From the NCBI RefSeq assembly GCF_024346355.1, contig NZ_JAGQCU010000012.1, positions 1 through 64,000 of the forward strand: DNA of 64,000 nt, in the 5' to 3' direction. Positions 4,169 through 26,416 of the stretch are shown one piece after another. A program made the position numbers and the translations under genes. The notes beneath the pieces are model-generated. The model was not told where the DNA came from. It was given only the letters and a program-made list of their open reading frames with translations, and did no database searches. Origin of the DNA: Cyanobium sp. ATX 6A2. GTDB taxonomy: Bacteria; Cyanobacteriota; Cyanobacteriia; PCC-6307; Cyanobiaceae. Position 1 is the stretch's first letter. Each line of letters begins with the position of its first letter.

Positions 4169-5266
4169 CTACATCCCGAGACCCTCGGTGGGCAACAGCA
4201 GATCCATCAGGGCTCCGCCCTCAGGGTGGTTGCTGGCCTGGATCCGTCCGCCGTGGGTCACGGCGATCTGTTGCACGATCGAGAGGCCCAGGCCGCTGCC
4301 CGTCCGCTGGCTGCGGGCCCGGGCCGGATCGCCCCGGTAGAAGCGCTCGAACATGTGCTCGAGATCGTCCCGGCTGAGGCCGGGACCGTGGTCGCGCACG
4401 CTCAGCTGACACCAGCCGCCCCGGCTGGAGAGCGCCACTTCCAGGGCGGCGCCGTCGGGGCTGTAGCGCAGGGCGTTGTCGATCAGGTTGAGCAGAGCCC
4501 GGTGCAGGCGTGAGGCGTCAGCCTGCACCGTGATCTCCCCGGGGTGCTGGATCTGCAGATGCACGCCGCGCTGCTCCGCCAGGGGCCGCAGGCCCGCCCA
4601 CACCTCGTCCACCAGCTGGCCCAGCCCCACCGGCGCCAGCTTCAGGCCCCGCCCCGGCACCGTGTTCTCCAGCCGCGAGAGCTCCAGCAGATCGTTCACC
4701 AGCTCCTGCAGGCGCAGCAGTTCGCGCTGCAGCCGCTCCACCAGCCGGGCGTTCTGGTGGGTCACCTGGGCCGCCAGGCTGTCGCCCACCAGCAGCAGGG
4801 CGGTGAGCGGGGTCTTGAGCTCGTGGGCCACATCGCTCACCCAGCGCTCCTGTTGCTCCAGCTGGGCCTCCAGGGAGCGGCGGCTCTGGAGCTGCACGCC
4901 GATCCAGCCACCGAGGGCGGGCACCACCATCACGTCGAAGTCCTGGTGGTTGAACTGCCACTCCAGCCGCTGGGGCCGGTCGTGACGCCGGGCCATGGCC
5001 ACGCAGCTGAGCAGGTTGGGGTCGGGGCAGAGGTCGGCCAGCTGCCGGCCCTTGAGGTGCCGGCCCGCCTTCAATCCCAGGATCCGCTCGGCCCTGGGGT
5101 TGAGATGGTGCAGCCCACCGCCCGGCTCCAGCAGCACCCAGCCCACCGGGGAGGAATCGATCCAGCAGAGCAGCTGAACGGCATCGGGGGATTCCCCGTC
5201 GCCGGGCTGCTCGGGCCGCTGCCAGAGGGCCCAGCGCCGCGGCGAGGGTTGGCGGAGGTCAGCCAA
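4169..5266 (-). CDS. phoR: phosphate-sensing histidine kinase PhoR (SphS type)
   Basis: The 365-residue kinase has an N-terminal PAS-like domain (about 28-125), a HisKA domain with the phosphorylated histidine H148 in SDVAHELKTPLTAL, and a HATPase domain with the N box (NLIDNALRY), DHGPGL and GSGLGLSIV. No membrane-spanning segment is present, so it is probably cytoplasmic or peripherally attached. It begins at TTG 5266, overlapping the end of the response-regulator gene by 8 bp, which indicates translational coupling. Its position right after PhoB, in a cluster led by a PtrA-like regulator, supports the phosphate assignment over other kinases of this class. Confidence 0.88.
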   Translation of the reverse strand: MADLRQPSPRRWALWQRPEQPGDGESPDAVQLLCWIDSSPVGWVLLEPGGGLHHLNPRAERILGLKAGRHLKGRQLADLCPDPNLLSCVAMARRHDRPQRLEWQFNHQDFDVMVVPALGGWIGVQLQSRRSLEAQLEQQERWVSDVAHELKTPLTALLLVGDSLAAQVTHQNARLVERLQRELLRLQELVNDLLELSRLENTVPGRGLKLAPVGLGQLVDEVWAGLRPLAEQRGVHLQIQHPGEITVQADASRLHRALLNLIDNALRYSPDGAALEVALSSRGGWCQLSVRDHGPGLSRDDLEHMFERFYRGDPARARSQRTGSGLGLSIVQQIAVTHGGRIQASNHPEGGALMDLLLPTEGLGM

Positions 5267-5994: not shown

Positions 5995-6672
5995 TCAGCC
6001 AAGGCGATACCCCCTGCCGCGCACAGTGCTGATCAGGCGGGGATTGCTGGGGTCGTTCTCGAGCTTGAGCCGCAGCCAGTGGATGTGCACGTCCACGGTC
6101 TTGGGATCGAGGGAGGGGCCCTCGAGCTCTCCCCACACCTGCACCAGCAGCTCCTCGCGGGGCCAGATGCGGCGCTGGTGCTCGAGCAGGAAGCGCAGCA
6201 GCCGGAATTCCCGTGGCGAGAGCCTGATCCGTTCGCCGCCGCAGCGCACCTCGTGTTCCTCCACCACCATCTCGATCGGGCCGCAGCGCAGCACGGTGCG
6301 ACACGGCATGGCCAGCTGGCGGCGGCGCACGAGCGCCCGGCAGCGGGCCAGCAGCTCCGCCAGCCCGAACGGCTGGCGCAGCACGTCATCGGCACCGGCG
6401 TTGAGGGCCCGCTCCGGGTCCCGACTGCCGAGCAGCAGCAGGGGCACGGATCCGGCTGCGCCACGCAAGGCCTGCAGCTGATCGTCGTTCAGGTCGCTGC
6501 ACACCACCACCAGATCGATCCAGACATCGGGGTCCTGCAGGGCGACCACGGCCTCCGCTTCAGTGCAGCACGTCAGTTCAAAACCACCCTCCTCGAGGGA
6601 TGGGGCCAGGGAGGTGTCTGCAGGGGAGCTCGGATCAACCAGCAGCAGCCGCGCGGGCTGCTGCTGGCTCAT
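5995..6672 (-). CDS. OmpR-class regulator with degenerate (pseudo-)receiver
   Basis: The 225-residue protein has a good C-terminal winged helix (LSPREFRLLRFLLEHQ, TVDVHIHWLRLKLEN, STVRGRGYRLG), very close to that of the neighbouring PhoB. The receiver half has lost its chemistry. The acidic pair reads VDPSS, the phospho-acceptor position aligns with C58 in LVVVCSD instead of aspartate, and the conserved KP reads RQP. It should therefore not respond to phosphorylation in the normal way. Its start overlaps the end of ptrA (ATGA) and it sits 43 bp before phoB, so it is made with the phosphate regulators. It may bind the same kind of site, heterodimerise with PhoB, or read another signal; C35, C36 and C58 allow a redox input. 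Confidence 0.85.
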   Translation of the reverse strand: MSQQQPARLLLVDPSSPADTSLAPSLEEGGFELTCCTEAEAVVALQDPDVWIDLVVVCSDLNDDQLQALRGAAGSVPLLLLGSRDPERALNAGADDVLRQPFGLAELLARCRALVRRRQLAMPCRTVLRCGPIEMVVEEHEVRCGGERIRLSPREFRLLRFLLEHQRRIWPREELLVQVWGELEGPSLDPKTVDVHIHWLRLKLENDPSNPRLISTVRGRGYRLG

Positions 6673-7307
6673 CGGCGCTGCAGCGGCTGATGGGCGATCA
6701 CCAGACGGCGCTGGGAATCGATGTGCAGCCAGCCCTCCTCGCGCAGGCCACCGAGCACCCGGGTGACCGTGACCCGGGTGGTGCTCAGAGCGCTGGCCAG
6801 TTCCTGGTGGGTGAGCTTCACGTTGAGCCGCAGCCCCTGCTCGCAGGGCTGGCCGTAGTCGTTGGCGAGCAATTCGAGGAAGCCACGCACCCGCTCCTCA
6901 ATCCGGCGCAGGCCGAGGAGCGCCAGCATCGCCTCGCTCTGGCGGTAGCGGGCCGCCATGCCCTGCAGCAGGGCGATGGCCAGATCGGGAGAACCGGCCA
7001 GGTCTTCGCAGCTCAGGCAGAGCAGGTCGGTGTCATTCAACGTGCGGGCCTCATAGGCCTGCACGTTGCTGAGGGGTTCACCGAAGGGTTCGTTGGGCCC
7101 GGCCAGCCCGAGCAGCAGCTCATCGCCCTGCAGGGAGATGGCGCTCAGTTTCACCATCCCCCGGATCACCATCCACACGCTGCGCTTGAGCAGGGGCACA
7201 CTGCTGCCGGCGTTGAGATGCACGAGGCTGCGCTTCTCGAAGCTGGCCTCCAGCAGATCGCGGAAGCTGTCCCGATAGGAGGCTTCCAGGGACGGTGTGA
7301 ACACCAT
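6669..7307 (-). CDS. ptrA: CRP/FNR-family regulator, PtrA type
   Basis: The 212-residue protein has an N-terminal cyclic-nucleotide-binding-like barrel (about 20-110) and a C-terminal helix-turn-helix (LTHQELASALSTTRVTVTRVLGGLREEGWL, about 165-195). It has none of the iron-sulfur cysteines of FNR, and the cAMP-contact Arg-Ser pair is not evident. In marine picocyanobacteria a CRP-type activator of this kind (PtrA) lies beside phoBR and relays the phosphate signal to a second tier of genes; the gene order here supports that identity. An 11-bp-phased Pho-box array lies 52-92 bp upstream of its start. It is the first gene of the four-gene leftward cluster. Confidence 0.85.
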   Translation of the reverse strand: MVFTPSLEASYRDSFRDLLEASFEKRSLVHLNAGSSVPLLKRSVWMVIRGMVKLSAISLQGDELLLGLAGPNEPFGEPLSNVQAYEARTLNDTDLLCLSCEDLAGSPDLAIALLQGMAARYRQSEAMLALLGLRRIEERVRGFLELLANDYGQPCEQGLRLNVKLTHQELASALSTTRVTVTRVLGGLREEGWLHIDSQRRLVIAHQPLQRR

Positions 7308-7358
7308 GACGATCTGGATCTGGATTTGCGCTCAACCTATGGGGGCTGACCGGGCACC

Positions 7359-7399
7359 AGGCAAAGGGCTGGTAGCGGACTGTTTAAGAGTTGGTTAGG
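7359..7399 (-). promoter_or_regulatory. Pho-box array upstream of ptrA
   Basis: On the minus strand four 8-mers start every 11 bp: CCTAACCA (7399-7392), CTTAAACA (7388-7381), CGCTACCA (7377-7370) and CTTTGCCT (7366-7359). The cyanobacterial PhoB/SphR site is a set of PyTTAAPyPyW octamers separated by 3 bp. The phasing is exact; the first two octamers match well and the last two are weak. Confidence 0.7.
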
Positions 7400-7697: not shown

Positions 7698-9302
7698 TTG
7701 GGTGTCCGTTCTCGCCAACCCCTGCTTCTGATCCAACCGCCATTTCCATCTGTGTTTCAAGGCTTGCAACTGGTGCCCCGGCGCAGTGCGATTCCCGCTG
7801 AGCTGCTCGCGGGCATCGTGGTGGCCCTCGGCATCATCCCCGAGGCCATCGCCTTCTCGATCGTGGCTGGGGTGGACCCCCAGGTGGGGCTGTTCGGCTC
7901 GATCTGCATCCTGATCGTGGTCGCCCTTCTGGGTGGGAGGCCAGGCATGGTGTCGGCCTGCACAGCCGGTGTTGCCCTGCTGATGGGCGGCCTGGTGCAG
8001 TCCCATGGCCTCACCCATCTTCTCGCCGCCTGCATTCTCGCCGGCATCTTCCAGATCATCTGGGGCCTTCTGCGACTGGCCAAGCAGATGCGTTTCGTGC
8101 CCCGGGCGGTGACCGTGGGTTTCGTGAATTCGATCGGGGTGCTGATCTTCCAGGCCCAGCTCCCCCAGATGGGCTTCGGGCGCCTGGGCAGCGACACGCC
8201 ATCGAAGCTGGTGGGAGTGGAGGCCGTGAGCTGGCCGATGGTGTGGGGCCTGGTGGCTCTGGGGCTGGTGATCATCTACGGCCTGCCCCGACTCACCAGG
8301 CTGGTGCCCGCCACCCTGGTGGCGATCGTGACGATCAGCGTGATCGCCGAGGTGTGGCAGTTGCCGGTGCCACGGGTGGGGGATCTCGGTGATCTGCCCA
8401 GCAGCCTGCCGGTGTTTGAGATCCCCTCCGTATTCGGCTCCTTCGACACCCTCGGCATCATCCTGCCCACGGCCCTGGCGATTTCCCTGGTGGGGCTGCT
8501 GCAGTCGTTCCTCACCGCCAACGTGGTGGAAGACCTCGTGGATGAGGATGCCGACTACGAGGCCGAGGCTCGGGCCCAGGGCATCGCCAACATCACCGCC
8601 GGCCTGTTCGGCGGCATGGCCGGTGCCGGGATGATCGGCCAGACGGTGATCAACATCGAATCCGGCGGTCGCCACCGTCTCTCCACCCTCACCGCCGGGG
8701 TGGGACTGCTGATCCTGGTGATCTCCCTGAGCGGCTGGCTGGCTCGCATTCCCATGGCGGCCCTGGTGGCGGTGATGATCATGGTGTCGATCAGTACCGT
8801 GAACTGGGATTCGTTCCTCAAGGTGCGCAAGATTCCCAAGAGCGATACCTCGGTGATGCTGCTCACGCTGCTGCTGGCCGTGCTCACCCGCAACCTGGCA
8901 ATCGCCGTGTTGGTGGGGGTGGCTCTGGCAGGCATTCTGTTCAGCCGCAAGGTGGCCAAGGTGATTTCGGTGGATGCCACCTGGCTTGATGATCACTACC
9001 TTTATTACACCGTTCGTGGCCAGCTTTTCTTTGTGAGCACGGTGTATTTTCTGGCTGGCTTCAAGAAGCACGTTCATCCCGCTCGCGTCACCATCGACAT
9101 GGCCAATGCCCATGTCTGGGACCAGACGGGCATGCGTGCCCTTGATCAGGTGATCCGCAAACTATCGCGGGCCGGCTCCAGCGTGGAGGTGTTGAACCTC
9201 AATCGGGAATGCCGGGATCTGTTCGATCGCATCAGCGAAACACCTGAGTTCGTGCTCGGCGCCCGCTGTGCGGTTCCCGCCTCCTCAGAGGTTCAGGCGT
9301 GA
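7698..9302 (+). CDS. SulP-family anion transporter
   Basis: This is a membrane transporter with the SulP fold: many hydrophobic segments over residues about 30-400, the typical first-helix motif GIIPEAIAFSIVAGVDPQVGLFGS, the inward signature GGMAGAGMIGQTVINIESGGR (about 310-330), and a C-terminal STAS domain (VRGQLFFVSTVYFLAGF...ITIDMANAHVWD). The start is uncertain. TTG 7698 gives 534 residues, while GTG 7752 gives 516 and begins next to the family N-terminus. The substrate cannot be read from sequence and could be sulfate, bicarbonate or another anion. The end overlaps the BicA-like gene by 4 bp (GTGA), so the two are coupled. Confidence 0.85.
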   Translation: MGVRSRQPLLLIQPPFPSVFQGLQLVPRRSAIPAELLAGIVVALGIIPEAIAFSIVAGVDPQVGLFGSICILIVVALLGGRPGMVSACTAGVALLMGGLVQSHGLTHLLAACILAGIFQIIWGLLRLAKQMRFVPRAVTVGFVNSIGVLIFQAQLPQMGFGRLGSDTPSKLVGVEAVSWPMVWGLVALGLVIIYGLPRLTRLVPATLVAIVTISVIAEVWQLPVPRVGDLGDLPSSLPVFEIPSVFGSFDTLGIILPTALAISLVGLLQSFLTANVVEDLVDEDADYEAEARAQGIANITAGLFGGMAGAGMIGQTVINIESGGRHRLSTLTAGVGLLILVISLSGWLARIPMAALVAVMIMVSISTVNWDSFLKVRKIPKSDTSVMLLTLLLAVLTRNLAIAVLVGVALAGILFSRKVAKVISVDATWLDDHYLYYTVRGQLFFVSTVYFLAGFKKHVHPARVTIDMANAHVWDQTGMRALDQVIRKLSRAGSSVEVLNLNRECRDLFDRISETPEFVLGARCAVPASSEVQA

Positions 9303-10972
9303 CGTTCCTCATCTCCCTGCGGCCCGCCACGCTGTTCAGCAACTGGAAGGGCGACCTCACCGGCGGCTTTACGGCCGCCGTTGTTGCTCTGCCCCTGGCC
9401 CTGGCCTTCGGCGTGGCCTCCGGGGCTGGTGCCATCGCCGGCCTCTATGGGGCCGTCACCCTCGGTTTCTTCGCGGCTCTGTTCGGGGGCACCCCCAGCC
9501 AGGTGAGCGGTCCCACAGGGCCGATGACCGTGATCATGACGGCCGTGGTGACCCTGCTGGTGGGGCGTTACGGCCCCGAGGGGGGGCTGGCGATGGCCTT
9601 CACCGTGGTGGTGCTGGCCGGTGGCTTTCAGGTGCTGTTCGGCCTGATGAAGCTGGGCCAGTACATCACGATGATGCCCTACACGGTGATCTCCGGCTTC
9701 ATGAGCGGGATCGGCGTGATCATCATCGTGCTGCAGATCCCCACCCTGTTCGGGGTGACCCTGAGCGGGCCGATTCCCACGATCGTGGCCGGGATTCCTG
9801 GGGCGTTCGCCCAGCTCAATCCCACCGCACTGGCCCTGGGGGTTGCCACTTTCGCCCTGGTGATGCTCTATCCCAGGCGCTGGAACACGGTGCTGCCGGC
9901 GCCCCTGGTGGCCCTTGTGCTGGTCACGGTGGTCTCCGTGGTGGTGATACCCGAGGACGCCATTCCGCGCCTGGGCGCCATGCCCGCCGGTCTGCCCAGG
10001 CTGGTGATCCCGCGCCTGGGCCTGTCCGACCTGCGCACCCTGGCCGGTTTCGCCCTCACCCTGGCGGTGCTGGGGGCGATCGATTCGCTGCTCACCTCCC
10101 TGGTGGCCGACAACATCACCCGCACCCACCATGATTCCGACAGGGAACTGATCGGTCAGGGCATCGGCAACATCGCCGCCGGTCTGGTGGGTGGTCTGCC
10201 GGGTGCGGGCGCCACCATGCGCACCGTCACCAACGTGCAGGCGGGGGGGCGCACCCCCCTGTCCGGCATGATCCATGCCCTGGTGCTGCTGGTGATCACG
10301 CTTGGGGCGGGTCCCCTGGCCAGCCCGATCCCCCAGGCGGTGCTGGCCGGCATCCTGCTGCGGGTGGGGCTGGACATCATCGACTGGAACTTCATCTTCC
10401 GGGCGCCGCTGCTGTCGTGGAAGACCACGGGCCTGATGTGGCTGGTGCTGATCCTCACGGTGTTCTGGGATCTGGTCACCGCCGTGGTGGTGGGGGTGTT
10501 TCTGGCCAACATCCTCACGATCAAGCGCCAGAACGACCTGCAGCAGGAGCAGATGCGGCGGCTGCAGGGCGCGGCCGATCTGGCCGCGGCCGGCCACGAC
10601 CTCAGCCCTGAGGAGCGCCAGCTGCTGCGCCGCTGCGGCAAGCAGGTGCTGGTGCTGGAGCTGTCGGGCCCGCTGAGTTTCGGTGCCGGCAAGTTCCTGT
10701 CCCAGCAACTCACCAGCGTGGATGACTTCCACACCCTGGTGCTCGATCTCAGCGCGGTGCCCCTGCTGGGGGTCACGGCCGCCCTGGCGATCGAGACGAT
10801 CTGCTTCGACTGCCGCGACCAGCAGCGCCAGGTGATCATCGTGACCGATCGCAGCCAGCCCGTGGAGCGCCTCAACCGCCTCGGAGTGGACCGGATCCGG
10901 GGCGTGGCCTTCATGGTGGATCGGCTCTCAGCCCTGCAGGCCTGCTCCAGCCAGCTCGCCAAGGCCGCCTGA
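9299..10972 (+). CDS. bicA: Na+-dependent bicarbonate transporter BicA
   Basis: The 557-residue protein matches what I know of the cyanobacterial BicA sequence through most of its length: GDLTGGFTAAVVALPLALAFG, GFFAALFGGTPSQVSGPTGPMTV, TMMPYTVISGFMSGIG, TRTHHDSDRELIGQGIGN, GAGATMRTVTNVQAGGRTPLSG, GLDIIDWNF, and FLANILTI before a STAS domain (about 440-550). BicA is a low-affinity, high-flux sodium/bicarbonate symporter of the inner membrane that feeds the carbon-concentrating mechanism. It starts at GTG inside the stop of the preceding SulP gene and is followed after 4 bp by a Na+/H+ antiporter. That arrangement suggests co-expression to restore the sodium gradient the symporter consumes. Confidence 0.92.
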   Translation: MTFLISLRPATLFSNWKGDLTGGFTAAVVALPLALAFGVASGAGAIAGLYGAVTLGFFAALFGGTPSQVSGPTGPMTVIMTAVVTLLVGRYGPEGGLAMAFTVVVLAGGFQVLFGLMKLGQYITMMPYTVISGFMSGIGVIIIVLQIPTLFGVTLSGPIPTIVAGIPGAFAQLNPTALALGVATFALVMLYPRRWNTVLPAPLVALVLVTVVSVVVIPEDAIPRLGAMPAGLPRLVIPRLGLSDLRTLAGFALTLAVLGAIDSLLTSLVADNITRTHHDSDRELIGQGIGNIAAGLVGGLPGAGATMRTVTNVQAGGRTPLSGMIHALVLLVITLGAGPLASPIPQAVLAGILLRVGLDIIDWNFIFRAPLLSWKTTGLMWLVLILTVFWDLVTAVVVGVFLANILTIKRQNDLQQEQMRRLQGAADLAAAGHDLSPEERQLLRRCGKQVLVLELSGPLSFGAGKFLSQQLTSVDDFHTLVLDLSAVPLLGVTAALAIETICFDCRDQQRQVIIVTDRSQPVERLNRLGVDRIRGVAFMVDRLSALQACSSQLAKAA

Positions 10973-13826: not shown

Positions 13827-14700
13827 GCCACGCCCCCACCCCGCCGCCTTCTGCCTGAGCGTGCTGCTCAATGGCGCCCTGGTAACCCTGCAGCTCGTGA
13901 TCGGCTTCGGCTTCGGATCTCTGGCCCTGTTCGGCGATGCCCTGCACAACCTGGGCGATGTGGCCGGCCTGCTGCTGGCCTGGGGTGCCGAGGGGCTGGC
14001 CCGGCGGCCCCCCAGCCGGCGCTTCACCTACGGCTTCGGCCGCAGCACCCAGTTCGCCGCCCTGGCCAACGCCGCCCTGGTGATGGGGGCCGGCGCAATC
14101 GTGGTGCTGGAGGGCGTTCAACGCCTGGGGCGGCCCGTGGCCCTGGGCACCACCCCGGTGGCCCTGGCCGCCCTGGCCGGGCTGGTGGTGAACCTGGGCT
14201 CGGCCCGCCTGTTCGGTGGGGGCCATCACCACGACCTCAATCGCCGCGCGGCGGTGATGCATCTGCTCAGCGATGCGGCCCTCTCCGCCACCGTGCTGCT
14301 GAGCACCCTCCTGATCGCCATCACCGGCTGGACCCCCCTCGACGCGATCGTGGCCATCGGCGTGGGCGGCCTGGTGGTGCTGAGCGGCTTGCGGGTGCTG
14401 CGCGAAGCGGTGGCGGGCTCCCTCGATGCGGTGCCCAGCACGGTGGATCTCGAGGCCGTGGAACGCTCTCTGCGGGCGATCGAGGGGGTGTGCGACGTCC
14501 ATCACCTGCATGTGTGGAGTGTGAGCACTTCTCGGGTGGCCCTCACCGCCCACCTCTGCCGCGATCCGGCGGCGGTGAACGACGCCCACCTGCTGCGCCA
14601 GGCCCAGCAGCAGCTGCGGGATCTGGGGGTGGATCACGCCACTCTGCAGCTGGAGCCGGCCACGGGGATCGGCTGCGATCAGCCCGTGGTTCCCCGGTAG
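13819..14700 (+). CDS. cation diffusion facilitator metal exporter (CzcD/ZitB type)
   Basis: The 293-residue inner-membrane metal/proton antiporter has six transmembrane segments over about 10-195. The metal site is in [18 protein letters not shown] (an HxxxD-type motif in TM2) and [13 protein letters not shown] in TM5; a HHHD histidine cluster lies between TM4 and TM5. A cytoplasmic C-terminal domain ([13 protein letters not shown]) follows. Export of zinc or related divalent ions is typical of the family. TTG 13819 is the apparent start, coupled to the regulator upstream. The 3' end overlaps the convergent arsenite transporter gene by 22 bp. Confidence 0.9.
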
Positions 14701-15704
14701 GGAAACAGCCAGCGGCTGCGGTTGGCCACGGCCACCAGAGCCAGCATCACCGGCACCTCCACCAGCACCCCCACCACCGTGGCCAGGGCGGCGCCGGAGC
14801 GCACGCCGAACAGGCTGATGGCCACCGCCACGGCCAGCTCGAAGAAGTTGGAGGCGCCGATCAGGGCACCGGGGGCGGCCACGTCGTGCTGCTGGTGGCA
14901 GGCGCGCATGCCCAGGGCGGTGAGCAGGAAGATCAGCACCGTCTGCAGGATCAGCGGGATCGCCACCAGCACGATCAGGGCAGGGTTCTCGGCGATCCGG
15001 CCGGCCTGGAAGCCGAACAGCAGCACCACCGTGCCCAGCAGACCCACAATCGTCCAGGGCTTGAGCACCCGCTCCAGGTGCTCGATCGCCCGCTCGCTGG
15101 CCAGAAAGCGGCGGGTGAGCCAGCCCGCGACCAGGGGGATTACCACGAACAGCCCAACCGAGAGCTGCAGGGTGTCCCAGGGCACCACCACCTGGCTCAC
15201 CCCCAGCAGCAGGGCGGCGATGGGGGCAAAGGCCACCACCATGATCAGATTATTCACCGCCACCTGCACCAGGGTGTAGGTGGCATTGCCGCGGCAGAGC
15301 TGGCTCCACACAAACACCATGGCCGTGCAGGGGGCTACCCCCAGCAGGATCATGCCGGCGATCAGCTCGTCGCCCAGTTCGGCGGGGATCCAGGCGCCGT
15401 AGAGGCCGCGGATGAACCACCAGGCCAGCAGGGCCATGGTGAAGGGCTTCACCAGCCAGTTCATCCCCACCGTCACCAGCAGCGGCTGGGGATTGCGGCG
15501 GATGCGGCGCACGGCGCCGAAGTCAACCGCCAGCATCATCGGGTAGATCATCAACCAGATCAGCACCGCGATCACCAGGTTGATCTGGGCGATCTGGATC
15601 CCACCCAGCACGGTGAACAGACCCGGGAAGGACTGGCCCATGGCGATGCCGGCGGCGATCGCCAACGCCACCCAGAGACTCAGAAAGCGTTCAAAAATTC
15701 CCAT
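14679..15704 (-). CDS. arsB: ACR3-family arsenite efflux transporter
   Basis: The 341-residue, ten-helix inner-membrane protein has clear ACR3 features: [20 protein letters not shown] at the N-terminus, the TM4 cysteine motif [24 protein letters not shown], and [18 protein letters not shown] near residue 290. ACR3 exports arsenite using the proton motive force. It starts one base after the stop of arsR, so the pair forms a compact arsR-acr3 operon. No arsenate reductase (ArsC) gene is in the window, so reduction of arsenate must be done elsewhere. Confidence 0.93.
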
Positions 15705-15705
15705 C

Positions 15706-16068
15706 TCAGTCGCAGCAGGGGGTGGCGGGAGCGGTGCACTGGCGGGCCAGGGCCGCCAACCAGCTCTGCAGGGCCTCGAGGGCTTCTGGCCGCAGGCTGT
15801 AGTACACCCAGCGGCCGCTCTGGCGATCGCTCAGCAGCCCGGCATCGCGCAGCACCCGCAGGTGAAACGACAGCCGCGACTGGGCCAGGCCCAGCTCACC
15901 GGTGAGATCGCACACGCAGCGCTCGCCGCCGGCCAGGGCCTCGAGCACCTGCAGCCGGCAGGGATCGGCGAGGGCCTTGAGCATCGGCCGCGCCTGCTCG
16001 GTGCCCAGGGCGGGAGCAGTGCCCAGGGCGGTGGCGGCTGCTGCCGGGGCATCTCTTAACCCGTTCAT
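15706..16068 (-). CDS. arsR: arsenic-responsive repressor ArsR
   Basis: The 120-residue regulator has the arsenic-binding signature ERCVCDL (C51, C53), an extra C36 in ADPCRLQVL, and a C-terminal CC pair. The recognition helix is [17 protein letters not shown], with wing [13 protein letters not shown] take ATG 16068 (MNGLRDAP) as the start because the next in-frame ATG, 16077, would lie inside the palindromic operator; the frame is open much further upstream but reads as non-coding. It is transcribed with the ACR3 gene and divergently from the GAPDH-arsJ operon, so one operator could control both arms of arsenic resistance. Confidence 0.92.
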
Positions 16069-16084
16069 AAAACCCATCAAGCAC
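16055..16084 (+). promoter_or_regulatory. Pho-box-like array upstream of the GAPDH-arsJ operon
   Basis: On the plus strand CTTAACCC (16055-16062), CATAAAAC (16066-16073) and TCAAGCAC (16077-16084) start every 11 bp. The first two closely resemble the first two octamers before the pstS gene at 19629 (CTTAACCT, CATAAACG). It overlaps both the arsR start and the ArsR palindrome. Binding by PhoB is inferred. Confidence 0.45.
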
Positions 16085-16092
16085 AGTTGATG
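16075..16092. promoter_or_regulatory. ArsR operator, CATCAA-N6-TTGATG
   Basis: A perfect 6-bp inverted repeat, CATCAA (16075-16080) and TTGATG (16087-16092), with a 6-bp spacer, lies in the 52-bp gap between divergent arsR and GAPDH genes. ATCAA-N6-TTGAT is a common ArsR operator form. Repression in both directions is expected. Confidence 0.75.
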
Positions 16093-16120
16093 TGAGAGTA
16101 CCGCCAATCGCTCTTGGGTT

Positions 16121-17146
16121 GTGCGCATCGGCATCAACGGCTTCGGCCGCATCGGCCGCCTGGTGTTCCGGGCTCTGTGGGACCGCCCCGGCATCGAGCT
16201 GGTGCACGTGAACGACTGCGGCGGTGATGCCGCCACCGCGGCCCACCTGCTGGAGTTCGACTCGGTGCACGGCCGCTGGCAGCGCCCGGTGACGGCCCAG
16301 TCCGCCGGCTTCGCCGTGGAGGGCACCGACGTGGGCTACTCCCAGCTCAGCCATCCGGCGGTGGTGCCCTGGAAGGACGCCGGCGTGCAGCTGGTGCTGG
16401 AGTGCAGCGGCAAGGTGAAGACACCCGACGCCCTCGCCGCCTACTTCTACGAGGGCGACATCAACAGGGTGATCGTGGCCTGCCCGGTGAAGGGGGATCT
16501 CGACGGCGTGGAGATCCCCAACATCGTGTATGGCATCAACCTTGACGCCTACAAGCCAGAGCGGCATCGCCTGCTCACCGCCGCCTCCTGCACCACCAAC
16601 TGCCTGGCGCCGGTGGTGAAGGTGGTGCACGAGAGCTTCGGCATCCGCCACGGCTCGATCACCACCCTGCACGATGTCACCAACACCCAGGTGGTGATCG
16701 ACAGTTTCAAGAGCGATCTGCGCCGCGCCCGCTCCTGCCTGCAGAACCTGATCCCCACCACCACCGGCTCGGCGAAGGCGATCGGCCTGATCTTTCCCGA
16801 TCTGCAGGGTCGCCTCAACGGCCACGCCATTCGCGTGCCGCTGCTCAATGCCTCGATCACCGATGCGGTGTTCGAACTGGAGCGCAGTGTGAACGCCGAG
16901 GAGGTGAACGCCGCCTTCGAGGCCGCCGCCAATGGCCCCCTGCAGGGCATCCTCGGCTACGAAACCCGGCCGCTGGTGTCGAGCGATTTCCTCAACGACA
17001 GCCGCAGCTCGATCGTGGATGCCCTCTCCACCTTGGTGGTGAACGGCACCCAGCTCAAGGTGTTCGCCTGGTACGACAACGAGTGGGGCTACAGCTGCCG
17101 CATGGCCGATCTGGCCTGCCACGTGATCAGCCAGGAGGCCCGCTGA
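16121..17146 (+). CDS. gapdh: ArsJ-associated glyceraldehyde-3-phosphate dehydrogenase
   Basis: The 341-residue enzyme has an N-terminal NAD(P)-binding domain ([17 protein letters not shown]) and a catalytic domain with C157 in [11 protein letters not shown] and the expected histidine later in the chain. Further landmarks are [11 protein letters not shown] and [15 protein letters not shown]. It starts at GTG 16121 and its stop overlaps the arsJ start. When linked to arsJ, this GAPDH uses arsenate in place of phosphate and makes unstable 1-arseno-3-phosphoglycerate, which ArsJ exports; that is established for such pairs in other bacteria. Its role in central metabolism is therefore unlikely. 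It is divergent from arsR across a palindromic operator. Confidence 0.92.
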
Positions 17147-18396
17147 TGCGCACGCTCACACCGGTTCAGCAGTACAGCATCATCACGGCCAACAACTGGG
17201 CGTTCACCATCACCGATGGGGCCCTGCGCATGCTGGTGGTGTTCCACTTTCTGCAGCTGGGGTTCACCACACTGGAGGTGGCCTTCCTGTTTATCTTTTA
17301 CGAATTTTTCGGCATTCTCACCAATCTGTATGGCGGCTGGCTTGGGGCCCGTTTCGGCCTCAAACTCACACTCTGGATCGGCACGCTGCTGCAGATCGTG
17401 GCCCTGTTGCTGCTGGTGCCGGTGGCGGACACCTGGCCCAGGCTGCTCTCGGTGGTCTGGGTGATGGCGGCCCAGGCCCTCAGCGGCATCGCCAAGGATC
17501 TCGAGAAGATGAGCGCCAAGAGCGCCATTCGCGTGGTGGTGCCCGAAACACCCGACGATCACAGCCGCGGCGAGGGGCAACTGTTTCGCTGGGTGGCCAT
17601 CCTCACCGGCGCCAAAAACGCCCTCAAGGGCCTGGGCTTTTTTGTGGGCGGTGTTCTGCTCACCACCGTGGGCTTCAACGCGGGCGTGGTGGTGCTGGCT
17701 GGCTGGCTGGCGGTGGCCTTTCTGGTCACCCTGCTGCTGCCGCGAGACATCGGCAAGATGAAGAGCAAACCCGCCTTCAAGTCCCTGCTGTCCAAGAGCG
17801 AGGGCATCAATGTGCTGTCGCTGGCCCGTTTCTTCCTGTTTGGCGCCCGCGATGTGTGGTTCGTGGTGGCCCTGCCGGTGTTTCTGCAGGCGAGCCTCGG
17901 CTGGGACTTCTGGAAGGTGGGCGGTTTCATGGGCCTGTGGGTGATCGGCTACGGGATCATCCAGGGTTCAGCCCCGAGCCTGCGCCGGGCCTGGGGCAGC
18001 GATCGGCCGCCCGGTCCGCCGGCCGTGCAGTTCTGGGCGGCCGTGCTCACGGCGATTCCGGCGCTGATCGCCATCAGCCTGTGGCGTGAGGCGGGCAACC
18101 CCGGCATCGCCGTGGTGGTGGGGCTGATGGTGTTCGGGGTGGTGTTTGCCATGAATTCCTCGATTCACAGCTACATGATTCTCGCCTACACCGAAGCCGA
18201 CGATGTGAGCCTGAATGTGGGGTTCTACTACATGGCCAATGCCGCCGGCCGTCTGTTGGGCACCCTGCTGTCCGGGGCTCTGTTCCTGGTGGGCGGGCTG
18301 CAGGCCTGTCTTTGGGCCTCCTGTCTTCTGGTGATCCTGGCCTTCCTCGCCGGCAGGCGGCTGCCCACGCCACCGCGGCAGCTGCAGCCGGCTTAG
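17146..18396 (+). CDS. arsJ: organoarsenical efflux MFS transporter ArsJ
   Basis: The 416-residue inner-membrane protein of the major facilitator superfamily begins at ATG 17146, overlapping the GAPDH stop by one base (TGATG). It opens [31 protein letters not shown], characteristic of ArsJ. FLFIFYEFFGILTNLYGGWLGAR, MSAKSAIRVVVPE and LSLARFFLFGARDVWFVVALPVFL follow. It exports 1-arseno-3-phosphoglycerate made by the GAPDH upstream, giving arsenate resistance without reduction to arsenite. The 3' end overlaps the convergent sphX-type gene by 4 bp. Confidence 0.93.
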   Translation: MRTLTPVQQYSIITANNWAFTITDGALRMLVVFHFLQLGFTTLEVAFLFIFYEFFGILTNLYGGWLGARFGLKLTLWIGTLLQIVALLLLVPVADTWPRLLSVVWVMAAQALSGIAKDLEKMSAKSAIRVVVPETPDDHSRGEGQLFRWVAILTGAKNALKGLGFFVGGVLLTTVGFNAGVVVLAGWLAVAFLVTLLLPRDIGKMKSKPAFKSLLSKSEGINVLSLARFFLFGARDVWFVVALPVFLQASLGWDFWKVGGFMGLWVIGYGIIQGSAPSLRRAWGSDRPPGPPAVQFWAAVLTAIPALIAISLWREAGNPGIAVVVGLMVFGVVFAMNSSIHSYMILAYTEADDVSLNVGFYYMANAAGRLLGTLLSGALFLVGGLQACLWASCLLVILAFLAGRRLPTPPRQLQPA

Positions 18397-19445
18397 CGAT
18401 AGCCCTCTTTGCGGGTTTCATCGAAGCTCTTGCGCAGGGCTTCACCGATGGTGAGGCCGATCGGCAGATCACCGCCGAAGGAGGTGCCGAGGATGTGGCG
18501 GTAGAGCTTGGTTTCCACCAGCCGGTAGGTGTCCGCCGGCAGGGGGATGTAGCCGGCCTCCTCCACAAAGCGCAGACCATTGCCCACGGTGAAGCCCACG
18601 AAGCTGCGAATGGTGTCGTCTTCCCGCATCTGCTTGTCGTTCACATACATGAACAGGGGCCGCGACAGGGGTTTGTAGCTGCCGTCCTGGGCTGATTCCA
18701 CCGAAGGGGCCACGGCGATGCCGTCGGCGCCGGCGATCGCCAGGGCATTGAGCCGATCCTGATTGGCCTGGTAGTAGGCAAAGCCGAAATAGCCCATGGC
18801 ATTGGGGTCACTGCCCACACACTCCACGATCACGTTGTCGTCTTCGCTGCCCTCGAAATCGCTGCGGGAGTTGGCCTTGTCGCCATTGATGGCTTCGTTG
18901 AAGTAGTCGAAGGTGCCGGAATCGGTACCGGGGCCGCAGAGGCGCAGGGGCCGATCGGGCCAGTCGATGTTGATCTGCTGCCAATTCTTGATCTTGCCCT
19001 CGGCCTCCTTCGACCAGGTGCGCGAGAGTTCCTTGGTGGTGATGGCGGAAGCCCAGTCGTTGTTGCCGTTCACCACCACGGTGAGGGCATCGAAGGCCAG
19101 GGGCAGTTCGATGAAGGTGATGCCCTTGTCGGCGCAGGCCTTGAGCTCGGCGCTGCTGATCGGCCGGGAGGCGTTGGCGATCGGGATGGCGCCCTGGCAG
19201 AACTCGCGCATGCCGCCCGTGGTTCCCACCTCGGAGAGCTTCACACGCACGTCTCGGCCGCGTTCGGTTTTGGCAAAGCCCTCGATGGCCTTCTCGATCA
19301 CCGGGAACACCGTGCTGGAGCCGCTGATGGTGAGGCTGGCGCTACCGCCTGAATCGGTGCTGTCGGCAACGCGATCGCCACAGCCGCTCAGCAGGGCCAG
19401 GGAGGCGGTGAGCAGGAGGGCGGAACACTGGCGGTGGCGAGCCAT
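18393..19445 (-). CDS. sphX: phosphate-binding lipoprotein, SphX type
   Basis: The 350-residue periplasmic binding protein has a lipoprotein signal (LTASLALLSGC, lipidated C22). It carries the PstS-like motifs SGSSTVFPVIEKAIEGF, VGTTGGMREFCQGAIPIANASR, DALTVVVN and GPGTDSGTFDYF. This divergent branch of the PstS family is called SphX in cyanobacteria. It should deliver phosphate to a PstCAB transporter, but no pstCAB genes are in the window. A Pho-box array lies 27-56 bp upstream, and a terminator separates it from the pstS gene before it. Confidence 0.88.
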   Translation of the reverse strand: MARHRQCSALLLTASLALLSGCGDRVADSTDSGGSASLTISGSSTVFPVIEKAIEGFAKTERGRDVRVKLSEVGTTGGMREFCQGAIPIANASRPISSAELKACADKGITFIELPLAFDALTVVVNGNNDWASAITTKELSRTWSKEAEGKIKNWQQINIDWPDRPLRLCGPGTDSGTFDYFNEAINGDKANSRSDFEGSEDDNVIVECVGSDPNAMGYFGFAYYQANQDRLNALAIAGADGIAVAPSVESAQDGSYKPLSRPLFMYVNDKQMREDDTIRSFVGFTVGNGLRFVEEAGYIPLPADTYRLVETKLYRHILGTSFGGDLPIGLTIGEALRKSFDETRKEGYR

Positions 19446-19471
19446 GGGGGAAAGATCACGCGAACCAAGCC

Positions 19472-19501
19472 TGATTGATCAAGGTTTTTTGTTGGTTAAG
19501 G
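19472..19501 (-). promoter_or_regulatory. Pho-box array upstream of sphX
   Basis: On the minus strand CTTAACCA (19501-19494), AAAAACCT (19490-19483) and TCAATCAG (19479-19472) start every 11 bp. The first is a full match to the Pho-box octamer, the second keeps AA-CCT and the third is weak. They sit 27-56 bp before the ATG. Confidence 0.7.
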
Positions 19502-19530
19502 GCAGGCCATGGTTGACCGTTTGCAAGGAA

Positions 19531-19558
19531 TAAAAAAAGGGGCTGCTGGCAGCCCCTT
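19531..19558 (-). terminator. rho-independent terminator after pstS (19629)
   Basis: Read on the minus strand, an 8-bp stem GGGGCTGC / GCAGCCCC (19556-19539) is followed by seven T residues. It is strong, lies about 70 bp after the pstS stop, and insulates sphX from upstream transcription. Confidence 0.9.
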
Positions 19559-19628
19559 GGATCTTGCGTTTGGATCTGGCGTTCAGTGTGCAGCCAGCTG
19601 GCTGTGGCCCCAGCCAGCGGCCAGCCGC

Positions 19629-20690
19629 TTACTCCTTGATCTTCTCGATCTCGGCCAGGGCACGCTTGCGCAGATCACCCGTGATCGGCACGTAGCCCAG
19701 CTCAGCGGCGGTGGCCTGGGGACCATCCTGCAGGGCCCAGGTGAGGAAGGTGCGCACGGCCTCGGCTGTCTCGGCGCCCTGGCCACTCTTGTAGCCCAGG
19801 ATCCAGGTGAAGGCCACGATCGGGAAGCTTTCCGCCCCGGCGGGGTTGCAGTCTTCACCACCCAGGCGCTCGTCGAGCACCACCTCGTTGAGGGCGGCGG
19901 CGCCGCTCTTCTCATCGGCCATCACGAAGTTGCCGTCCTTGTTCTGGAGAGCGGCCGCCTTGATGTTGCCCCTCACGTAGGCCTGGTTCACATAGCCGAT
20001 GGCACCGGGGGTGTTTCCGATCACGCCGGCCACGCCCTCGTTGCCCTTGCCGCCCACGCCCACGGGCCAGTTCACGGCCTTGCCCACGCCCACCTTGTCC
20101 TTCCACTCCTCGGAGAAGCAGGCCAGGGAGTTGGTGAAGGCGAAGGTGGTACCGGAGCCATCACTGCGGTGGGCCACGGTGATCGGGCTGTCTGGACAGC
20201 CCAGGGCGCTCCAGTTGTTGATCTTGCCCAGGAAGATGTCAGCCACTTGCTCCTGGGTGAGCTTGAGGTCGGGGCAGTCGGGGTTGTTGTAGGCCACCGG
20301 GACGGTGCCGCCCAGCATCGGGATCTGCACGGCGCCGCGTTCGCCAGCTGCACCTGAGCTGAAATCTTCGTCGCTGAGTTCTTCGTCGGTGGCGCCGAAG
20401 TCCACCGAGCCGGCCAGGAACTGGCGCACACCGGCGCCGGAGCCCACCGACTGGTAGTTCATCTGGTTGCCGGTTTCAGCGGAGTAGTCGGCGCCCCAGC
20501 GCTGGTAGGCCGCTGCGGGGAAGGTGGCACCCGCGCCACTGATGGTGGGCAGGGATTTGATCTCACCGCCGCCACCGCCACAGGCTGTGGCCAGAAGGGA
20601 GAGCGACACCACGCCGCCCGTGATGGCGAGGGAGGAGCGGCGAACGCGCCGGGGCTGCTTCGGCTTGGCGGAGAAGCGGATGGGTTGCAT
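19629..20690 (-). CDS. pstS: phosphate-binding lipoprotein PstS
   Basis: The 353-residue phosphate-binding protein has a long basic N-terminus and a lipobox LLATAC. The full set of PstS motifs is present: SGAGATFPAAAYQRW, NYQSVGSGAGVRQF, DFGATDEEL, AHRSDGSGTTFAFT and WPVGVGGKGNEGVAG. These residues form the phosphate pocket of the PstSCAB uptake system. It is closely related to the next gene, so the pair looks like a tandem duplication. A well-phased Pho-box array lies 54-83 bp upstream, and a strong terminator lies downstream, so it forms a single-gene unit. Confidence 0.94.
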   Translation of the reverse strand: MQPIRFSAKPKQPRRVRRSSLAITGGVVSLSLLATACGGGGGEIKSLPTISGAGATFPAAAYQRWGADYSAETGNQMNYQSVGSGAGVRQFLAGSVDFGATDEELSDEDFSSGAAGERGAVQIPMLGGTVPVAYNNPDCPDLKLTQEQVADIFLGKINNWSALGCPDSPITVAHRSDGSGTTFAFTNSLACFSEEWKDKVGVGKAVNWPVGVGGKGNEGVAGVIGNTPGAIGYVNQAYVRGNIKAAALQNKDGNFVMADEKSGAAALNEVVLDERLGGEDCNPAGAESFPIVAFTWILGYKSGQGAETAEAVRTFLTWALQDGPQATAAELGYVPITGDLRKRALAEIEKIKE

Positions 20691-20743
20691 GAACTCTGGG
20701 TTGTCTGACCGCGGCCTATGTCTACTGGATGAAGGCGACGAGA

Positions 20744-20773
20744 GCCTTAAGAGCCGTTTATGGCCAGGTTAAG
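20744..20773 (-). promoter_or_regulatory. Pho-box array upstream of pstS (19629)
   Basis: On the minus strand CTTAACCT (20773-20766), CATAAACG (20762-20755) and CTTAAGGC (20751-20744) start exactly 11 bp apart. The first is a perfect octamer. This is the clearest 8+3 array in the window. Confidence 0.82.
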
Positions 20774-20803
20774 TTGGGCTCTATTTGCTCAGATCAGAAC
20801 AGA

Positions 20804-20829
20804 GAAAAGAGGTGCCATGGGGCACCTCT
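20804..20829 (-). terminator. rho-independent terminator after pstS (20866)
   Basis: On the minus strand a 9-bp stem AGAGGTGCC / GGCACCTCT (20829-20808, 4-nt loop) is followed by TTTCTC. It lies about 40 bp after the stop of the pstS gene at 20866 and before the Pho-box array of the next one. Confidence 0.8.
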
Positions 20830-20865
20830 CTGCGACAGGGCTGTGGGTTGGTGAGGGAGCCTGGA

Positions 20866-21858
20866 TTACGAGCCGATGCGTTCAACCGCCTTCTTGGCTT
20901 GGTTGAGGATGTTGCCCTGAAGGGGCACGTAACCGAGGCTTGCGGCCTGGTTCTGAGCCGCGGGGCTCAGCAGGTGATTCATCGCTGTGCGCATTGAGTT
21001 GGTCTTGGCGCCGTTGCCGCTTCGGTAGGCCAGAATCCAGGTGAGGGTGGAGATGGGATAGCTGTTGGCACCTGCGGGGTTTGGGTCCTCACCCGCCAGG
21101 TTGGCATTAAGCTTGATGTTGTTCAGGGCTGCCGCACCGCTTTCCTTGGTGGGCATCACAAACTTGCCGGCTTTGTTCTGTAGGGCGGCGGCTTTGATCT
21201 TGCCCTTCACGTAGGCCTGGTTCAGATAGCCGATGGAACCCGGTGTGTTCTGGATTACGCCTGCCACGCCCTCGTTGCCCTTGCCGCCCACGCCCACGGG
21301 CCATTTCACTGCCTTGCCTTCACCCACCCTGCTCTTCCATTCGGGTGAGAAGGCGCTCAGAGAATTGGTGAAGGCGAAGGTGGTGCCGGACCCGTCGGAG
21401 CGGTGGGCCACTGTGATCTTCCCCTTGCCGCATTTGAGCTGCTCCCAGGTGGTGATCTTGCCCAGGAAGATATCCACAGCCTGCTTCTGGGTGAGGTTGA
21501 GCTTGGCGCAGTCGGATTTGTTGAAAGCGATGGCGATGGTGCCTCCCACGGCCGGGAACTGCACCACCCCGCGCTTCACCTTGGCGGCCTCGGCGGCCTT
21601 GATCGGCTCATCGGTGGCGCCAAAATCCACACTGCCGCCCACAAACTGGCGCACACCAGCACCGGAGCCCACCGATTGGTAGTTCACCCGCACCTTGCTG
21701 GCCACGCCGGCGAAGGCGCGCTGATAGAAGGGGGCAGGAAATGTGGCGCCGGCACCGCTGATCGTTGCCTGTGCCAGCAGGGGAGTGGCGGCGGCGGCAA
21801 CCAGGGCCACAGCTGTGATGGTGCCGGCGGCGGTGGTGGCCTTCCTGGCGAAGGTCAT
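20866..21858 (-). CDS. pstS: periplasmic phosphate-binding protein PstS, non-lipidated
   Basis: The 330-residue protein counts from ATG 21858 (MTFARKATTAAG); the upstream extension to 21909 crosses the -10 region, so it is not used. It has the same motif set as the other PstS (GAGATFPAPFYQRAF, NYQSVGSGAGVRQF, DFGATDEPI, HRSDGSGTTFAFT) but a plain Sec signal ending VAAATPLLAQA, with no lipobox cysteine. It should be free in the periplasm rather than lipid-anchored like its neighbours. Its promoter has the best-defined Pho-box plus -10 layout here. Confidence 0.93.
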   Translation of the reverse strand: MTFARKATTAAGTITAVALVAAAATPLLAQATISGAGATFPAPFYQRAFAGVASKVRVNYQSVGSGAGVRQFVGGSVDFGATDEPIKAAEAAKVKRGVVQFPAVGGTIAIAFNKSDCAKLNLTQKQAVDIFLGKITTWEQLKCGKGKITVAHRSDGSGTTFAFTNSLSAFSPEWKSRVGEGKAVKWPVGVGGKGNEGVAGVIQNTPGSIGYLNQAYVKGKIKAAALQNKAGKFVMPTKESGAAALNNIKLNANLAGEDPNPAGANSYPISTLTWILAYRSGNGAKTNSMRTAMNHLLSPAAQNQAASLGYVPLQGNILNQAKKAVERIGS

Positions 21859-21883
21859 GATTAGAGCAAGAATTACCTTGCTT

Positions 21884-21950
21884 TTTATAGCAGCGGCAAG
21901 GTTAAGCAATCACCATCTCCTCATTAACATCCGGTGCTTTCCTGATTAAG
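21884..21950 (-). promoter_or_regulatory. PhoB-dependent promoter of pstS (20866)
   Basis: On the minus strand CTTAATCA (21950-21943), GTTAATGA (21928-21921) and CTTAACCT (21906-21899) start exactly 22 bp apart, two Pho-box periods; the octamers between them are degenerate. TATAAA (21889-21884), preceded by TGC, follows the last octamer after 9 bp. Thus a Pho box replaces the -35 element, as in class II activated promoters. Confidence 0.82.
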
Positions 21951-22020
21951 ACTCTGCGCCTTTGGGCTGTTTTCTGACTGCTGACCTGTGGCGATGCTCT
22001 GGTGTACAGGTGGCGGCCAT

Positions 22021-22047
22021 GAAAAAGGCCCTCCATGAGGAGGGCCC
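22021..22047 (-). terminator. rho-independent terminator after the porin gene
   Basis: On the minus strand an 8-bp stem GGCCCTCC / GGAGGGCC (22046-22027, loop of 4) is followed by TTTTTC. It lies about 55 bp after the porin stop. Confidence 0.85.
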
Positions 22048-22100
22048 AGGATGAGGCGAGATGTGTGAGGTGTGGGGTGCTGCAGCGACGCAGCGGCAGA

Positions 22101-23588: not shown

Positions 23589-23592
23589 CGGG

Positions 23593-23601
23593 TCCTCACA
23601 C
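23593..23601 (-). promoter_or_regulatory. putative Yfr1 small-RNA target overlapping the porin ribosome-binding site
   Basis: The minus-strand leader reads GTGTGAGGA five bases before the porin ATG. It is the exact complement of TCCTCACAC, the core of the picocyanobacterial RNA Yfr1 (ACUCCUCACAC). In Prochlorococcus Yfr1 represses porin mRNAs by pairing there. The Yfr1 gene itself is not in this window. Confidence 0.7.
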
Positions 23602-23724
23602 CGATAGGGAAGAACGTCCAATGGACGTCGCGCCGCAACGTATCGGCCTTTGCCTGAGATGGGGAGTGGCCAGATCACTGGGTGCTGTCGTCCAGAACAC
23701 ATCGGTGCCAGGGGGTGGCGTGCA

Positions 23725-24687
23725 TCAGCCCAGGCGGCCGGCCAGGTTGATCAGGCCTGCCCGGATCTGCCCCAGGCCGGATCGCTCCTGGCCTTCGGCG
23801 AGCCAGAGCAGGGGGCGCCGCCGGCGCTGCGGCGCCGCCAGCAGGGTGGCTGCCAGATCCCGCCACTGCCGCCAGCACTGCAGGTGGTGCTGCTCCATCA
23901 GCCAGTCGAGCTGGGGCACGGTGCGCTCGATGCCATCGCGCAGTTGCTCGTCGATGGCTTTGCGCAGCACCTCCAGGTCGTTGAGCTCAGCCAGCAGATC
24001 CCGGCCCCTCCGCAGCTGCTGGCGCCAGCGTTGGCGGGCGCTGGCGCCTGCCAGGGGCAGGTTGTCGAGCCGGTCGCCATGGTCCTCGAGGCAGACCCCC
24101 AGATCCCGCAGGCCGGCCAGCTCCTCCCTGCGCTCAGCCACCCACCAGCCGCGGTGCAGCAGCAGCGGTGCGGGGTCGGCCTCCCACTCCAGCAGCCAGG
24201 CCTGCAGGGGCTCCTCCCCCAGGGCCGTGTAGCGGGGGTCCCGCAGCCAGCCCTGCAGCCGGGCAAGCTGCTCGAGATGGCCACCACTGCGCAGTGCCTC
24301 CCCGAGATGGTCGTGGGCCAGCTGCCGTTCGCGCTTCAGCTGTCGCAGCACCGGCTTGAGCCGGCGCACCTCCCGCTCCGGTGCCTGGGGCAGGAAGGCG
24401 ACATCGAGGCGCTCCCGCAGGCGATCGAGATCCCGGACCATCGCCAGTCGCCGCTGGGTTTTGGCGAGTCGTTTGGCGTTCACGCCCTCGGGTAGATCCA
24501 GGGCCGGCTCGAACTGCAGCAGGCTGTGGAGCAGCTGGCGCAGGTGGTCATCCATCTGGCGCAGGGGTTCTGGATCCCGGTTCTCCAGCACTGCCGCCTG
24601 GAGCTCCACCAGCCCCCGGCAGTGCTGGGCGATCAGGCCATGGGCGTGATCGCCGTTGAGGATCGGCATGGCTGCGGCTGCCATCAC
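23725..24687 (-). CDS. CHAD-domain protein (likely polyphosphate-binding)
   Basis: The 320-residue, all-helical, very Arg/Lys/His-rich protein has the paired CHAD repeats: VRDLDRLRERLDVAFLP...VRRLKPVLRQLKRERQLAHDHL and ELNDLEVLRKAIDEQL...WRQWRDLAATLLAAP. Basic and histidine faces of CHAD helices bind inorganic polyphosphate in characterised members. There is no CYTH phosphatase domain. A pair of Pho-box-like octamers lies 30-48 bp upstream, in the short gap after corA, which would fit induction with the phosphate regulon. Confidence 0.82.
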   Translation of the reverse strand: MMAAAAMPILNGDHAHGLIAQHCRGLVELQAAVLENRDPEPLRQMDDHLRQLLHSLLQFEPALDLPEGVNAKRLAKTQRRLAMVRDLDRLRERLDVAFLPQAPEREVRRLKPVLRQLKRERQLAHDHLGEALRSGGHLEQLARLQGWLRDPRYTALGEEPLQAWLLEWEADPAPLLLHRGWWVAERREELAGLRDLGVCLEDHGDRLDNLPLAGASARQRWRQQLRRGRDLLAELNDLEVLRKAIDEQLRDGIERTVPQLDWLMEQHHLQCWRQWRDLAATLLAAPQRRRRPLLWLAEGQERSGLGQIRAGLINLAGRLG

Positions 24688-24716
24688 TCCACTCTCCCGG
24701 CCCCAGAGCCCCTCAA

Positions 24717-26395: not shown

Positions 26396-26416
26396 GGGAG
26401 GGTTCCGGGGGTTGCT

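Follow-up and report, generated by a model that had tools for sequence, protein, structure and literature searches.

Some freshwater picocyanobacteria may tune or restrain their phosphate-starvation response with a switch-dead copy of PhoB that is encoded directly after ptrA. We found this gene, here called RRx, in a stretch of 64,000 nucleotides from Cyanobium sp. ATX 6A2 (the window). Pseudo-receiver regulators are already known; RRx as part of the picocyanobacterial Pho operon appears to be a new case of them. Judged from its sequence, RRx could be an operon-dosed, phosphorylation-blind partner and competitor of PhoB that tunes and probably restrains PhoB output. We put this reading forward tentatively, as somewhat short of probable.

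The gene row and the receiver

RRx belongs to a tightly packed row of genes, ptrA-RRx-phoB-phoR, behind a conserved four-unit Pho box (Table 1). Its ATG lies inside the stop codon of ptrA, forming an ATGA overlap, and 43 nt separate its stop from the start of phoB. PtrA scores 355 bits against the NCBIfam model TransRegPtrACyano (cut-off 300). The DNA-binding half of RRx matches Trans_reg_C with 90.4 bits (cut-off 26.2), as is expected of the OmpR/PhoB winged-helix family and of the PhoB-like half that the preliminary description had seen there. The receiver stays below the Pfam cut-off for Response_reg (13.5 bits, E 0.086, cut-off 30.2). Among the members of our RRx profile A2, Trans_reg_C is matched by 15 of 15 and the receiver, at E<=0.1, by 13 of 15 (best 6.9e-12). 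Against the PhoB equivalog TIGR02154, RRx reaches 123.5 bits, under the cut-off of 296.2, which the neighbouring PhoB misses as well (231.9). That neighbour is the top paralogue of RRx in its own genome (43% identity, 142 bits; the runner-up reaches 93 bits). A frameshift or annotation artefact is ruled out by orthologues and intact frames; since the orthologues are kept in place and frame in other genomes, the open reading frame is not a chance one.

Table 1. Features of the window around RRx and of the phosphate/arsenate island
Feature	Position	Strand	Remarks
RRx, pseudo-receiver PhoB-like regulator	5995..6672	-	ATG start; 225 aa/225 codons; residues, Pfam and paralogue comparison
Pseudo-receiver half of RRx, residues 1-117	6322..6672	-	substitutions at second acid, Thr/Ser, Lys and K-3 Tyr; phospho-acceptor column holds Cys58
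alpha4-beta5-alpha5 face of RRx	about residues 83-118	-	conserved
Winged-helix DNA-binding half of RRx, residues 128-225	5998..6291	-	Trans_reg_C; recognition helix 14/18 identical to own PhoB
ptrA, CRP-family phosphate-stress regulator	6669..7307	-	NCBIfam TransRegPtrACyano; stop overlaps RRx start (ATGA)
phoB, canonical response regulator with phosphotransfer residues, 230 aa	5259..5951	-	profiles and residues
phoR, histidine kinase, TTG start as read	4169..5266	-	overlaps phoB
Four 11-bp Pho-box units upstream of ptrA (CCTAACC, CTTAAAC, CGCTACC, CTTTGCC)	7356..7399	-	promoter comparison and pattern
Putative -10 element CATAGG	7336..7341	-	14 nt past fourth unit, read from sequence
ACR3 arsenite efflux	14679-15704	-	phosphate/arsenate island
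ArsJ-associated GAPDH	16121-17146	+	phosphate/arsenate island
ArsJ	17083-18396	+	phosphate/arsenate island
sphX-like PstS	18393-19445	-	phosphate/arsenate island
Two PstS	19629-20690, 20866-21909	-, -	phosphate/arsenate island
Na/Pi symporter	26417-28003	-	phosphate/arsenate island

Compared with its own PhoB, the RRx of the window has Asp13 (E9), Pro14 (D10), Cys58 (D57), Gly82 (S85), Val97 (Y104) and Gln100 (K107). The preliminary description had the cysteine at the phospho-acceptor position and the loss of the lysine (RQP for KP) right. Its statement that the acidic pair is missing holds for the second acid only, as the first stays. We also aligned 18 full-length RRx with 44 PhoB rows. The first acid is D or E in 8 of 18 RRx and in all 44 PhoB; the second is acidic in none of the RRx, and D in 43 PhoB and N in one. 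In the phospho-acceptor column RRx has D in 11, C in four, and T, S and N in one each (D in 44/44 PhoB). The Thr/Ser position is kept in two RRx, both Ser, the conserved Lys in one and the Pro at D+4 in one, each against 44/44 PhoB. The K-3 Tyr, present in every PhoB, is Val in 18/18 RRx. Hence, the canonical PhoB set (DD, D, T/S, K) is not found in RRx.

A receiver without any one of five key residues counts as a pseudo-receiver, a definition cited in passages of PMC12548384. RRx lacks key residues, and its AlphaFold model (mean pLDDT 87.3 for the full protein) alternates strands and helices as a receiver does. By sequence, RRx is thus a pseudo-receiver, with Cys at the phospho-acceptor as one of several replacements. 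Orthologues that retain the aspartate had been named as evidence to the contrary, and taken literally 11 of 18 do. Even so the phosphorylation chemistry is not restored, as all 18 have lost the second acid, 17 the Lys and 16 the Thr/Ser.

We compared 23 stretches upstream of ptrA: over the 14 bases of the first two Pho-box units, 20 have 12 or more matches, L033 and L034 have 9 and 10, and L041 is truncated at the end of its contig. Loci with and without RRx alike have the array. Passages of a 2007 study report CTTAACCT as the repeat for cyanobacterial SphR, and place Pho boxes ahead of a crp-sphR-sphS operon (PMC1906773). In the window the Pho-box pattern occurs 7 times, where 0.44 are expected, including sites just upstream of the sphX-like gene, a pstS and the ArsJ-associated GAPDH. 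We use only this window count; a genome-wide scan with a loose pattern was uninformative (24+27 matches, 49+40 in the reversed control).

Two other observations concern the surroundings. The window holds a phosphate/arsenate island (14679-28003) with several genes behind Pho-box-like sites. Directly upstream of the ptrA row, on the opposite strand, lie two long frames resembling SulP-type anion transporters (putative; 7698-10972).

Occurrence, truncated forms and relatives

We searched 400 genomes of the family, from 59 genera. Profile A2 matches 19 of them at E 1e-74 or better, in four genera; 18 carry a full-length RRx, and in one (G203) the gene runs off its contig. A query with the DNA-binding half matches 20, the extra one being Cyanobium sp. 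M55B138 (G202). Across the 400 genomes the slot between ptrA and phoB contains 18 full-length genes, the cut one, one without a receiver and two without a DNA-binding domain. In all 17 full-length loci examined, the window included, RRx sits between ptrA and phoB with an ATGA or GTGA overlap, which bears out the position and the coupling to ptrA proposed earlier and shows that the slot is conserved among orthologues. All 18 full-length frames are intact. The carriers include Cyanobium sp. PLM2.Bin73, CH-040 and T1B-Tous, C. usitatum Tous, and Synechococcus sp. 8F6 and CS-1330 (among 80 of 185 loci listed). In 4 of the 13 genomes of the window's genus (G072, G099, G121 and G201) RRx is absent and ptrA and phoB are adjacent; where such gaps fall inside the Cyanobium PhoB clade, loss is the best reading. 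The open-access literature that we searched yielded no description of the gene, and the ptrA/phoB passages of PMC11098088, PMC10119275 and PMC9948718 do not mention it. This agrees with the earlier remark that RRx is not a standard part of the described picocyanobacterial cluster.

The truncated forms have lost opposite halves. In M55B138 a 99-codon DNA-binding frame without a clear start signal lies between ptrA and phoB (L057:1434-1733), seen in a single assembly that is 77% complete. Its DNA-binding half differs from that of three relatives by dN 0.14-0.17 at dS 0.37-0.95, hence the receiver-less copy is not free of constraint. Two other genomes, G059 and G111, carry a receiver-only form of 143 codons with an ATGA overlap with ptrA (L241:1281-1712, L242:1587-2018), the AlphaFold model of which is receiver-like (pLDDT 83.4). 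Equal lengths and similar tails suggest that the DNA-binding half was probably lost before the two split. Between them dN/dS is 0.25 overall (p 9e-5), 0.04 over alpha4-beta5-alpha5 (1 nonsynonymous versus 8 synonymous, binomial p 0.0002) and 1.08 in the former tail.

A related pseudo-receiver PhoB-like gene, RRy, is found in the pst locus of one genus (g10; L106:3710-4453, L201-L203), which is Vulcanococcus by the named record L106. The order there is pstS, RRy, an sphX-like gene on the other strand, pstC and pstA. RRy occurs in 15 of the 400 genomes, all of this genus (all matching at 1e-76 or below; one copy is incomplete at a contig end), and in none that carries RRx. Our counts use these 15 distinct rows; the pst-locus table has 19, including 4 repeat copies of the same sequences. 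The phospho-acceptor is Asp in none of the 15, the Lys and a Ser at the Thr/Ser position are each kept in one, and the K-3 residue is Val in 13 rows but Ile in two; the second acid of the pair is acidic in 14. In three genomes (G219, G262 and G250) RRy comes after a second ptrA and overlaps it by TGATG; a separate ptrA faces phoR elsewhere. In the remaining 12 (one cut by a contig end) RRy follows pstS directly. RRy sits away from phoB, so a place beside phoB is dispensable.

All RRx rows group in a single clade (100/98) that broadly mirrors the PhoB tree. Once five fast paralogues and five further rows that were partial, fast or near-duplicate are removed from the tree, RRx and RRy fall on one side of a branch (98/85); with the fast paralogues in, RRy groups with one of them. 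The shared branch and the coupling to ptrA suggest common descent, with long branches and the conflicting earlier tree leaving doubt, and RRy is a probable orthologue of RRx. We are unsure of the exact origin of RRx because of the long branches. A clade of RRx with all PhoB is not rejected (AU p 0.356 at full length, 0.446 for the DNA-binding half). A tree of the DNA-binding half puts paralogues inside RRx, and we do not trust it. A recent duplication inside Cyanobium is unsupported: AU p for RRx with Cyanobium-clade PhoB only is 0.038 at full length and 0.235 for the DNA-binding half.

Selection and possible roles of RRx

How could RRx affect PhoB? Phosphorylated PhoB would fire the Pho box before ptrA, and RRx would probably be co-produced with PtrA, PhoB and PhoR. 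It should be deaf to the phosphorylation signal of PhoR; because it could not follow that signal, its dose would be set by its own operon. The winged helix would occupy Pho-box half-sites. For this half, competition with PhoB, as the preliminary description had suggested, is plausible from the recognition helix: at 14 of 18 positions it is identical to that of the cell's own PhoB, and the best other paralogue reaches 11. The alpha4-beta5-alpha5 face would pair with a receiver, most likely that of PhoB. Positions corresponding to PhoB E113, R117 and R119 are kept in 18/18 RRx and D103 in 17/18. We take these positions to lie within the PhoB-type pairing face. This face does not single out PhoB as the partner, since it is equally like other response regulators of the genome (PhoB 19/30; others 22/30, 19/30 and 19/30). 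The outcome would be a tuned and probably restrained PhoB output, as a built-in negative feedback.

We favour a brake because both of the opposite natural truncations could antagonise PhoB, while neither is likely to activate in the way that the full protein may. Each half-protein could also be a product of decay. The stricter proposal is that the brake works in two separable ways, by occupying Pho boxes and by pairing with receivers, travels with ptrA, and has split into receiver-only and DNA-binding-only lineages that each keep half the antagonism. We regard this as rather unlikely.

Another response regulator, L007 (C1:104398-105045 of the same genome), is closer to RRx in its pairing face (22/30) than PhoB is. 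It has Val at K-3 like RRx, but keeps the Lys.

One could also argue that RRx activates rather than restrains. As a homodimer or with PhoB, it would switch on a sub-regulon without phosphorylation, as a constitutive co-activator or coincidence partner of the kind proposed for CmrT and WhiI/BldM. According to passages of PMC12632262, pseudo-receiver regulators are common, and many of those studied form dimers without needing phosphate and are regarded as constitutively active; the same goes for CmrT. The predicted fold of RRx is like that of DNA-bound CosR (TM 0.76) and, more weakly, HP1043, and both domains are retained together in most lineages. Yet the receiver-only copies, which cannot activate by DNA binding of their own, are under purifying selection. 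Moreover, RRx has two more residues than PhoB in the loop before the recognition helix. Since this loop contacts RNA polymerase in the PhoB-type family (passages of PMC3960148), altered activation by RRx is possible, and the difference speaks against a co-activator. All in all we think such a role unlikely, while taking it seriously.

Could RRx be a duplicate of PhoB on its way out, with little function? It evolves fast, has lost domains both ways and has repeatedly been lost as a whole. We compared dN/dS by Nei-Gojobori counting, dropping pairs with dS outside 0.15-1.5; alignment error may affect distant pairs. In the window's genus the median is 1.11 over beta1-beta4, 0.36 over alpha4-beta5-alpha5 and 0.30 over the DNA-binding half (20 of 21 pairs each). 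The near-neutral values of beta1-beta4 between distant pairs mean that the receiver may be decaying. The idea that it is simply neutral has to be softened: in gap-free columns the 21 pairs range from 0.35 to 1.36 over beta1-beta4, and the three closest lie at 0.35-0.39; the PhoB median for this region is 0.15. In genus g45 the medians are 0.41 (13 of 15 pairs), 0.14 (14) and 0.10 (10) for the same three parts. Against decay stand the 18 intact frames, the DNA-binding half at 0.10-0.30, and significant purifying selection on the receiver-only and pst-locus copies; five RRy pairs have dN/dS of 0-0.19 in every part, which is strong purifying selection. Little function is an improbable explanation.

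It is about as improbable that the partner of RRx is PtrA rather than PhoB. The coupling to ptrA is retained in the receiver-only copies and, away from phoB, in the three pst-locus genomes with a second ptrA. A helper of PtrA fits poorly with the 12 of 15 pst-locus genomes (one cut by a contig end) in which no ptrA stands between pstS and RRy. We also know of no interaction between PtrA and a receiver, which counts against this role.

Very improbable is a decoy in which Asp-keeping lineages still accept or sequester the phosphoryl signal of PhoR: the Asp is kept in 11 of 18 and the g45 receivers are more constrained, but in the Asp-keeping lineages, too, the second acid, the Lys and the Thr/Ser are mostly gone, and the idea is inapplicable to the window's gene with its Cys58.

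The preliminary description had also proposed a redox input through C35, C36 or C58. Passages of PMC9321951 describe thiol switches in the cyanobacterial regulators Rre1, RpaA and RpaB, and some cysteines of RRx are well kept: C36 in 17 of 18 orthologues and C111 in 18 of 18. These two are common in PhoB as well (24/44 and 44/44 rows). C130 (window 6283-6285, at the start of the DNA-binding half) is Cys in 13 of the 18 RRx, against 0 of 44 PhoB rows; it is a candidate for the functional, family-specific cysteine that a redox sensor of the RitR and RpaB type would have. Only four of the 18 orthologues have Cys at position 58, and likewise four at position 35. The expected conservation of C58 is not there; we reject a C58 switch on these grounds, and find a redox-switched PhoB paralogue built on C35, C36 or C58 hardly credible.

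Comparison with known systems

Passages of PMC12632262 call it an open question how pseudo-receivers are switched and which roles they play in two-component systems that are otherwise normal. In the RRx family, full-length, receiver-only, DNA-binding-only and null variants exist naturally next to one conserved Pho operon. This set occurs in Cyanobium-type strains, some of them in culture, which makes the question directly testable. A brake of the kind we favour would change models of phosphate stress in freshwater picocyanobacteria, which currently consist of PhoBR and PtrA.

Among winged-helix regulators, ChxR, HP1043, CosR and NblR resemble RRx in having atypical receivers that act independently of phosphorylation or atypically; NblR and CosR are counted in this class. 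To our knowledge none of the four is a paralogue within the operon of its canonical parent. WhiI and BldM of Streptomyces have an effector family that differs from that of RRx. As in our model, a pseudo-receiver regulator there works through heterodimers with another regulator (passages of PMC12632262), although, unlike in our model, the two are not co-transcribed (passages of PMC12548384).

The picocyanobacterial ptrA(crp)-phoB(sphR)-phoR(sphS) operon has the same gene row and tandem Pho boxes, as for crp-sphR-sphS of NATL2A in passages of PMC1906773. The description given there has no third regulator, and RRx is an insertion in Cyanobium-type lineages.

The nearest studied precedent for RRx is CmrT of the Clostridioides difficile CmrRST system. 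Like RRx, it is an OmpR-family pseudo-receiver regulator encoded beside a canonical regulator and a kinase (for RRx, in one row as read from the genes), and its operon is activated by that regulator. Passages of PMC12548384 place CmrT in the operon of its partner pair and describe it as autoactivated, with homodimers and apparent heterodimers. In CmrT the changes are few (DD to DGD, D to E), and the T/S, the K and the K-3 Tyr are still there, whereas RRx has lost nearly the whole set, exists in domain-split forms and shares its operon with a CRP-family regulator.
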